From Methanolobus sp. (GTDB lineage Archaea; Halobacteriota; Methanosarcinia; Methanosarcinales; Methanosarcinaceae): 56,084 bases of DNA. The number at the start of each line of letters is the position of its first letter. The stretch's first letter is position 1. The translations under genes were made by a program, and so were the position numbers. This document shows positions 537 to 6,030 of this stretch, in pieces. The notes below the pieces were generated by a model. It was not told the origin of the DNA and made no database searches. It saw nothing but the letters and a program-made list of their open reading frames with translations. The DNA is taken from NCBI GenBank assembly GCA_030154025.1, contig JASKKT010000010.1, forward strand, positions 1-56,084. The letters run 5' to 3'.

Positions 537-730
537 ATTTTTTGTCTCCTTACATATTATATTTAGTTCGCTCAGCAGAGCCGAGATCGAGAATATTCGC
601 ATGATGGGGTTTACCCGGAATTAACCAGATATCTCATTATGATACGACTAACTCTAATTGTCCGAGTAATTTTTAAAAGAAGCATACACAAATATACTAA
701 CCCTTTATTGAATTCCTGAGCAATCGAACT
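537..730 (-). promoter_or_regulatory. Conserved structured 5' leader, copy 1
   Basis: On the minus strand the presumed transcript begins at AGTTCG (730-725), 22 nt after a TATA box, and runs about 194 nt to the ATG. Near its 3' end CTCGGC-TCT-GCTGAG forms a hairpin (585-571), followed directly by CGAACTA (570-564), whose CGAACT is complementary to the 5'-terminal AGTTCG. A CTTCTTTT box inside the conserved TAAAAGAAGC complement (674-683) can pair with the ribosome binding site AAGGAG. The second copy at 5808-5996 keeps the same boxes with the same 166-nt spacing and a hairpin with different bases but the same pairing. The architecture is seen in the sequence; riboregulation is inferred. Confidence 0.65.
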
Positions 731-861: not shown

Positions 862-940
862 AAACACAGAGAACACCGAGATCACAGAGGATCAATGAGG
901 TCACTTTTCATTCCCTGTGTTCTCTGTGGACTCTTGTGGT
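862..940. repeat. CTCTGTG-type inverted intergenic repeat
   Basis: CACAGAGAACAC (865-876) is repeated in perfect inversion as GTGTTCTCTGTG (917-928), with further degenerate CACAGAGG and CTCTTGTGG units around it. Low-complexity repeats of this 'ctctgtgttctctgtg' style are scattered between genes in many bacteria and archaea. Short open frames across it (for example from 895) are composed of repeat sequence and are not taken as genes. Confidence 0.6.
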
Positions 941-5615: not shown

Positions 5616-5807
5616 TTAATATCTCTGTGGCTTGTGCTTCTGGTAGCATTCCCTGCAGTATACAGGTCTGTCAGGGGCAGGCACGAAAGGTACTTCGGTT
5701 TCCTGTTTGCAGTCGGAGCAAGTTGCCTTGTGCATCTCTCTCGGACCTGTTGATCTGAAACCACCGCTGCCGCCTCTGCTGTTACCGCTTCTGTTATCGA
5801 ATCTCAT
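5616..5807 (-). CDS. Small RGG, CxxC-x17-CxxC zinc-ribbon protein (copy 2)
   Basis: A 63-residue paralogue of the protein at 309-536. It keeps the zinc ribbon (CSDC, 17 residues, CREC) almost unchanged but has a shorter RGG tail (one clear RGG box and one SGGF). Over the zinc-ribbon half the two genes differ by only a few bases, while the Gly/Arg tails differ in length, as expected for repeat slippage. AAAGGAAA precedes the ATG as ribosome binding site. The leader at 5808-5996 is conserved with copy 1. No partner gene is co-transcribed with either copy. Confidence 0.8.
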   Translation of the reverse strand: MRFDNRSGNSRGGSGGFRSTGPREMHKATCSDCKQETEVPFVPAPDRPVYCRECYQKHKPQRY

Positions 5808-5996
5808 ATTTGATTTCCTTTGTTGTCTCTAGTTCGTCCCGCCGGAGACGGGATTGAGAATTGCGCATGAAGAATCCGATCTGATCTTGATCAAACCTGG
5901 TTTTCGATACGGCTTACCCTTTACTGTCCAAGCAATTCACTAAAAGAAGCACATAAATAATGATAATTCTTTATTAAATCGTTGAGCAATCGAACT
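5808..5996 (-). promoter_or_regulatory. Conserved structured 5' leader, copy 2
   Basis: This is the second example of the leader described at 537-730. The 5' AGTTCG (5996-5991) and the 3' CGAACT (5836-5831) span 166 nt, exactly as in copy 1. The hairpin is CCCGTC-TCC-GGCGGG (5852-5838): its bases differ from copy 1 at several positions, but all six pairs are kept. The box TAAAAGAAGC (5941-5950) is identical, and its CTTCTTTT complement can pair with the ribosome binding site. Between these islands the two leaders have diverged. Confidence 0.65.
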
Positions 5997-6020: not shown

Positions 6021-6030
6021 ATATATAAGA
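6021..6030. promoter_or_regulatory. TATA element shared by two divergent genes
   Basis: ATATATAAGA reads as TCTTATATAT on the minus strand and lies 24 nt before the leader start at 5996. Read rightward it lies about 47-56 nt before the acetyltransferase ATG at 6077. It may serve both directions. Confidence 0.45.

Follow-up and report, generated by a model that had tools for sequence, protein, structure and literature searches.

Two related leaders upstream of zinc-ribbon genes

The analysed stretch of Methanolobus sp. DNA (56,084 nt of contig JASKKT010000010.1, henceforth the window) carries on its minus strand two genes whose RGG-rich products contain a CxxC-x17-CxxC zinc ribbon and match TIGR04272 (cutoff 36) with 72.8 bits for copy 1 (309-536, start codon 536-534, 75 aa) and 69.5 bits for copy 2 (5616-5807, start codon 5807-5805, 63 aa). 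Each gene is preceded by a leader of ~190 nt (537-730 and 5808-5996, minus strand), matched by a covariance model (CM) at 535-730 with 196.4 bits and at 5804-5996 with 157.5 bits. Leaders of this kind are termed type A; 30 of them, all from one genus, were aligned (alignment A1), and the CM was built on type A leaders alone.

As the preliminary description had noted, both leaders begin with an AGTTCG box (725-730 and 5991-5996, minus strand) below a TATA element, which was read directly on the minus strand (TTTATAT at 755-761 in copy 1, 31 nt above the box; 6021-6028 in copy 2), and the spacing of copy 1 is repeated in the aligned relatives. The box is (nearly) invariant in the 30 leaders. Since the TATA elements sit 31-32 nt upstream of it, transcription most likely starts at this box, and the leader is very probably the transcribed 5' UTR of the RGG zinc-ribbon mRNA. 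The hexamer AGTTCG alone is common, with 29 occurrences over both strands of the window; the 14-mer AGTTCGATTGCTCA is found there in the two leaders only.

Towards the gene, each leader has a 3' box, CGAACT (565-570 and 5831-5836, minus strand), complementary to the 5' box. The two boxes span 166 nt in both copies, just as described earlier; this exact figure does not hold generally, since leaders of other species differ in length. The boxes form the strands of a putative closing helix P0, which in copy 1 pairs 725-730 with 565-570 (98.8% of cells paired in the CM alignment). Inside it lie a 5' arm (P1, 653-724 in copy 1) with a near-invariant GCTTCTTTT element and conserved helix columns, and two predicted hairpins: H2 (TATCTGG/CCGGGTA at 612-631 in copy 1; GGTTTGATCAAGATCAGATC at 5878-5897 in copy 2) and, immediately 5' of the 3' box where the preliminary description had placed a covarying hairpin in both copies, H3 (CTCGGC-TCT-GCTGAG at 571-585; CCCGTC-TCC-GGCGGG at 5838-5852). 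All of these elements are on the minus strand, and H2 and H3 of copy 2 were seen in local folds and in the CM alignment. The Shine-Dalgarno (SD) sequences outside the domain, AGGAGA (545-550, minus strand) and AGGAAA (5814-5819, minus strand), were read directly; the former is mostly unpaired and the latter unpaired in predicted folds. Behind the first leader, at window positions 865-928, the intergenic DNA also contains an inverted repeat, CACAGAGAACAC / GTGTTCTCTGTG, which resembles a dispersed intergenic repeat.

Distribution and conservation

The zinc-ribbon gene is present in 44 of 60 related genomes, and the window's own genome (2.26 Mb) has four such genes. Type A leaders were identified in 24 of 27 Methanolobus genomes, several of them with two copies (CM scores 157-213 bits), and the order-level CM search extended the family to two Methanococcoides (g3) and three Methanomethylovorans (g25) genomes (117-198 bits), where all the type A loci that were read precede a zinc-ribbon gene. 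The search of 186 genomes of the order with the CM and of 112 genomes of the family with a pattern of the 5' module led to a zinc-ribbon gene at every locus that was inspected, one near-threshold match (G008:C1:1371608, E 0.59) being left unassigned; a regulon in which the leader would be shared with other genes was rejected on this ground. No Rfam 15 family matched the whole window at the gathering threshold, or positions 500-800 with E up to 1. The literature search in an open library yielded nothing published about these leaders, or about the zinc-ribbon family in connection with TRAM, an absence which is not proof that they are unpublished.

The similarity of the leaders is far beyond chance. 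The mean column identity of the 30 sequences in A1 is 78%, and the DNA above the TATA box is not alignable beyond background (pairwise 0.80 vs 0.64). The leaders are more conserved than the 4-fold degenerate sites of the gene that follows (0.77 vs 0.63, and 0.74 vs 0.49 in divergent pairs). This conservation is uneven, with an identity of 0.86 in the 5' part, 0.64 in the middle and 0.77 in the 3' part.

The gene family also has other kinds of 5' region. A further zinc-ribbon paralogue (L003, L075, L079-L081) has no such leader, is located behind a conserved gene and shows a differently conserved 5' region. In other genera of Methanosarcinaceae (L115, L118-L120, L122-L124) the gene is preceded by an unrelated and strongly conserved leader, AGACGTATAA...GTTAAAAACCAATTTTTGTTTTTAATC...TCTATACAATCTT(A/T)TTTTT, which we regard as a second candidate for a structured leader.

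Relationship to the TRAM gene

In Methanoperedenaceae the promoter is followed first by an intact small gene for a TRAM-domain protein and then by the zinc-ribbon gene, and these operons carry the same 5' module, CAGTTAGCTTA...CTTYTTTTAGGTTRATTG, with the same promoter spacing. In Methanosarcinaceae the TRAM gene at the zinc-ribbon locus is a relic. This is most evident in the 300-nt leader of the second Methanolobus zinc-ribbon paralogue (type B; alignment A2), which aligns with the TRAM operon from end to end and is recognisably the TRAM gene with stop codons and frameshifts. The profile of intact TRAM operons scored up to 42 bits against the type B leaders of Methanolobus and ANME-2 (at most 8.9 bits in 2400 shuffles) and 154 bits against L106, a fresh relic from another family. 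The reverse search of TRAM operons with type B, in which the training set comprised 22 rows and one of these was the fresh relic L106, returned 40 to about 94 bits.

Each of the 30 type A leaders was in turn matched by the type B profile in two separate, collinear segments (A 11-92 = B 12-91; A 97-195 = B 215-309), between which ~120 nt are missing from type A. The scores range from 7.6 to 36.7 bits (shuffle maximum 7.1 in 3000), with three of the 30 lying within ~1.5 bits of that maximum; in the window, copy 2 scored 25.9 bits in the TRAM-derived half and copy 1 11.9-12.0 bits. The type A leaders of Methanomethylovorans-type genomes (g25), which the window-type CM recognised with 117-137 bits, also matched the TRAM coding sequence directly (23.4-24.4 bits over positions 137-215 of 216, against a maximum of 5.5 bits in 5000 shuffles). 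As this match reaches position 215 of 216, CGAACTA very probably represents the former TRAM terminus (AAC TAA) and GCTGAG the Ala-Glu codons of the gene. The 3' box of copy 1 would thus be the former Asn-stop, as also suggested by the alignment with the coding-sequence profile in close relatives, H3 of copy 1 would derive from the codons ...A-x-A-E, and H2 of copy 1 falls into the TRAM-derived half. The 5' arm is collinear with the 5' UTR of the TRAM operon and with the type B leaders. Copy 1 itself scored only 3.7 bits against TRAM, so its descent rests on the intermediates: type B and the Methanomethylovorans type A leaders resemble TRAM directly, and the window copies resemble it via these. 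A further check, independent because the CM had been built on type A alone, came from nine weak CM matches in Methanolobus, eight of which fell on type B leaders of zinc-ribbon genes; a weaker g25 match (42 bits) was also a type B leader.

The TRAM reading frame has been lost, as three-frame translations contain stops and no conserved open reading frame. Judged from sequence comparison, the leader is almost certainly a decayed TRAM gene of the same operon, with the 3' half of type A corresponding to the C-terminal TRAM codons. The preliminary description had overlooked this origin, and with it the likely identity of the 3' box and H3 as the last codons of TRAM. Shorter TRAM remnants, mainly C-terminal codons adjoining the zinc-ribbon gene, were found in Methanoperedenaceae and ANME-2 (L031, L100, L104, L099, L158), which suggests that TRAM was lost repeatedly at this position. 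Stand-alone intact TRAM genes of Methanolobus (L053-L068) have a long conserved leader of their own, GCTTTAAAATAAGACTGTT...CTAAACGTATTGACATT...TTATGTTTTCAGCTTA, unlike the zinc-ribbon leaders, and other genera of the family have three to four TRAM genes in tandem (L050, L051, L056).

Predicted RNA structure

The structure was drawn by hand on a MAFFT alignment, in which 93% of the cells are paired and two-sided changes number 38 versus 13.7 in shuffled controls, and the sequences were then realigned with the CM after addition of five sequences from other genera. The CM alignment, likewise with 93% of the cells paired, contains 52 two-sided cells against 16.3 +/- 3.7 in shuffles (none of 500 reached it) and 6-18 in controls with the structure slid along, figures to be read with the caveat that the structure itself guided the alignment and that the sequences are related, so that cells are not independent events. 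The compensatory changes are located in H2 (4 of 7 pairs), H3 (3 of 6 pairs) and a few pairs of the 5' arm. The closing helix is nearly fixed in this alignment, in agreement with the earlier remark that its boxes are complementary and identical and show no covariation; since it and the 5' arm barely vary, covariation does not bear on either. An H3-like hairpin of different sequence (CTTCC/GGAAG, GTCTC/GAGAC) is found at the same place in several type B leaders. An extra helix (AGAGU/AUUCU with UCGUA/UGCGA) could plausibly form in Methanomethylovorans and in part of Methanolobus and adds little covariation.

Thermodynamic predictions are less uniform. The mean z-score of the whole-leader folding energy versus shuffles is -0.84 over all leaders, and in one Methanolobus subclade and in Methanococcoides, where H2 and H3 are weak or broken, z is ~0. 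The unconstrained fold of copy 1 keeps the closing helix and H3, with the 5' arm and H2 preferring other pairs. RNAalifold run on the MAFFT alignment missed both H2 and H3, because their arms are not aligned across clades. Given these limits of alignment, kinship and subclade, we regard the structure as supported in g25 and in the clades to which the two window copies belong; other clades may have lost or changed it. A conserved RNA structure under selection is, on the pattern of substitutions, probable. The homologues with compensatory changes that the CM search retrieved, together with the lack of an Rfam match, support the initial proposal of an undescribed structured leader RNA.

It could be argued that the leader is a passive relic, in which promoter, 5' arm and ribosome binding site alone are under selection and the dead TRAM sequence between them is slowly deleted and has no function. 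The decay of TRAM in several lineages and to differing extents, the middle of the leader evolving at about the silent-site rate, and the loss of the hairpins in one subclade would all be expected on such grounds. However, the TRAM-derived 3' block exceeds silent sites in conservation (0.77 vs 0.63), its two-sided compensatory changes are well above the shuffled and slid controls, and its length is near-constant across the genus, which makes a functionless remnant unlikely. That a conserved and foldable leader very probably goes back to a decayed gene suggests instead that a dead gene has been kept as a regulatory RNA.

Possible mechanism and function

The best explanation of the observations as a whole, and one which we consider reasonably probable, is that the leader is a structured 5' UTR derived from a cold-shock operon, which tunes the expression of the zinc-ribbon gene, plausibly via TRAM paralogues. 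The ancestral operon would have had the order promoter-leader-TRAM-zinc-ribbon. The old TRAM 5' UTR would have been retained as the 5' arm. A deletion would have removed ~120 nt from the TRAM coding region, whose final third, up to the stop codon, would have become noncoding and would now form hairpins downstream of the 5' arm and ahead of the ribosome binding site. Pairing of AGUUC with GAACU would close the whole domain in vivo and leave the SD exposed just outside it. Such a cis-acting leader could inherit the cold or RNA-chaperone control of the lost TRAM gene, and the remaining TRAM proteins could bind and remodel it, thereby adjusting whether the zinc-ribbon transcript is completed, how stable it is or how well it is translated. 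Against this explanation count the weak or broken H2 and H3 of one Methanolobus subclade and of Methanococcoides, with folding energies like those of shuffles, the near-invariance of the closing helix and 5' arm, the low direct TRAM score of copy 1, and the middle of the leader, which is barely above silent sites (0.64 vs 0.63).

TRAM proteins of Methanolobus (M. psychrophilus) are cold-induced RNA chaperones and equivalents of Csp proteins (PMC5572242), and TRAM0076 of Methanococcus unfolds hairpins in 5' UTRs, raises the expression of fused reporters and binds its own transcript (PMC6705878). The proposed mechanism is the simplest one that makes use of these facts. The authors of the Methanolobus study favour transcriptional over 5' UTR control of the TRAM genes (PMC5572242), which weakens the idea of an inherited TRAM control. 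By analogy with these systems, a response of the leader to TRAM proteins or cold is conceivable, if tentative. A protein-responsive role, one of the two suggested in the preliminary description, is thus possible, with TRAM proteins as the specific candidate ligand. Since TRAM proteins bind TRAM mRNA, one may even speculate that the dead TRAM sequence was kept as a binding site for the remaining TRAM chaperones, so that a coding sequence would have turned into a control site acted on by the protein family that it used to encode; we regard this variant as somewhat doubtful.

Or perhaps the RGG zinc-ribbon protein binds its own leader and thereby limits its own synthesis? The leader was found only before this gene family, and proteins of the RGG and zinc-ribbon types frequently bind RNA. 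Yet some zinc-ribbon paralogues lack the leader, including L003 in the window's own genome, and we consider this autoregulation unlikely. The other role suggested initially, that of a temperature sensor, finds no support in the classical form in which an RNA thermometer masks the SD at one temperature. The long leader, the cold-adapted members of the genus and an invariant CUUCUUUU, which could base-pair with AAGGAG(A), as it is predicted to do in one leader (L011), would fit this reading, but the folds of the 30 leaders at four temperatures revealed no switch: the mean unpaired probability of the SD rises from 0.66 at 5 C to 0.80 at 37 C and 0.84 at 55 C, and in both window copies it is at least 0.84 throughout. 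Masking of the SD was therefore rejected in silico as very improbable. As the SD lies directly beyond the closed domain and is largely unpaired from 5 to 55 C, the domain appears to present the SD rather than to hide it. A short translated peptide starting at the old Met codon of VMRKF and controlling the gene is hardly tenable, as the ATG found at this place in 22 of the 30 leaders is absent from the other 8, has no SD before it and opens frames of 2 to >20 residues that are not conserved; no conserved peptide was found among the 30 leaders, and a conserved upstream open reading frame was rejected.

Relationship to known systems

The structured 5' UTR that we favour shares features with several known systems. 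Like the cspA-type cold-shock leaders of bacteria, it is long and structured (~160 nt in cspA, ~190 nt here) and belongs to a gene for a small nucleic-acid-binding protein, and it appears to go back to a TRAM gene, which encodes a protein functionally equivalent to Csp (PMC5572242). In contrast to these, it shows no sequence relationship, Rfam match or predicted temperature switch and probably has its origin in a coding sequence; at most, by analogy, it may work like a cspA-type leader. The leaders of the Methanoperedenaceae TRAM-zinc-ribbon operons, with the same 5' module and promoter spacing, represent its likely ancestor, from which it differs in that the TRAM frame is destroyed and shortened and only the zinc-ribbon gene follows. 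Protein-binding autogenous leaders of the ribosomal-protein type are likewise gene-specific structured 5' UTRs, as here before a putative RNA-binding protein gene, but the ligand of the present leader is putative and its structure is unevenly conserved. Structured RNAs derived from pseudogenes exist, for instance among eukaryotic lncRNAs with coding ancestors, and they too re-use a former coding exon as RNA; the present leader differs in being archaeal and cis-acting and in having a neighbour gene of the same operon as its apparent ancestor. In terms of class it is a structured 5' UTR, and its unusual point is its descent from a neighbouring gene of its own operon.

The sequences form a traceable series from the intact TRAM operon of Methanoperedenaceae through the full-length relic of type B to the shortened and apparently refolded relic of type A, which would illustrate a route from coding sequence to regulatory RNA in archaea. 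The uncharacterised and widespread RGG zinc-ribbon protein becomes tied by the shared operons and the leader to the archaeal cold-shock (TRAM) system, and both its role and the function of the leader become testable through this connection.
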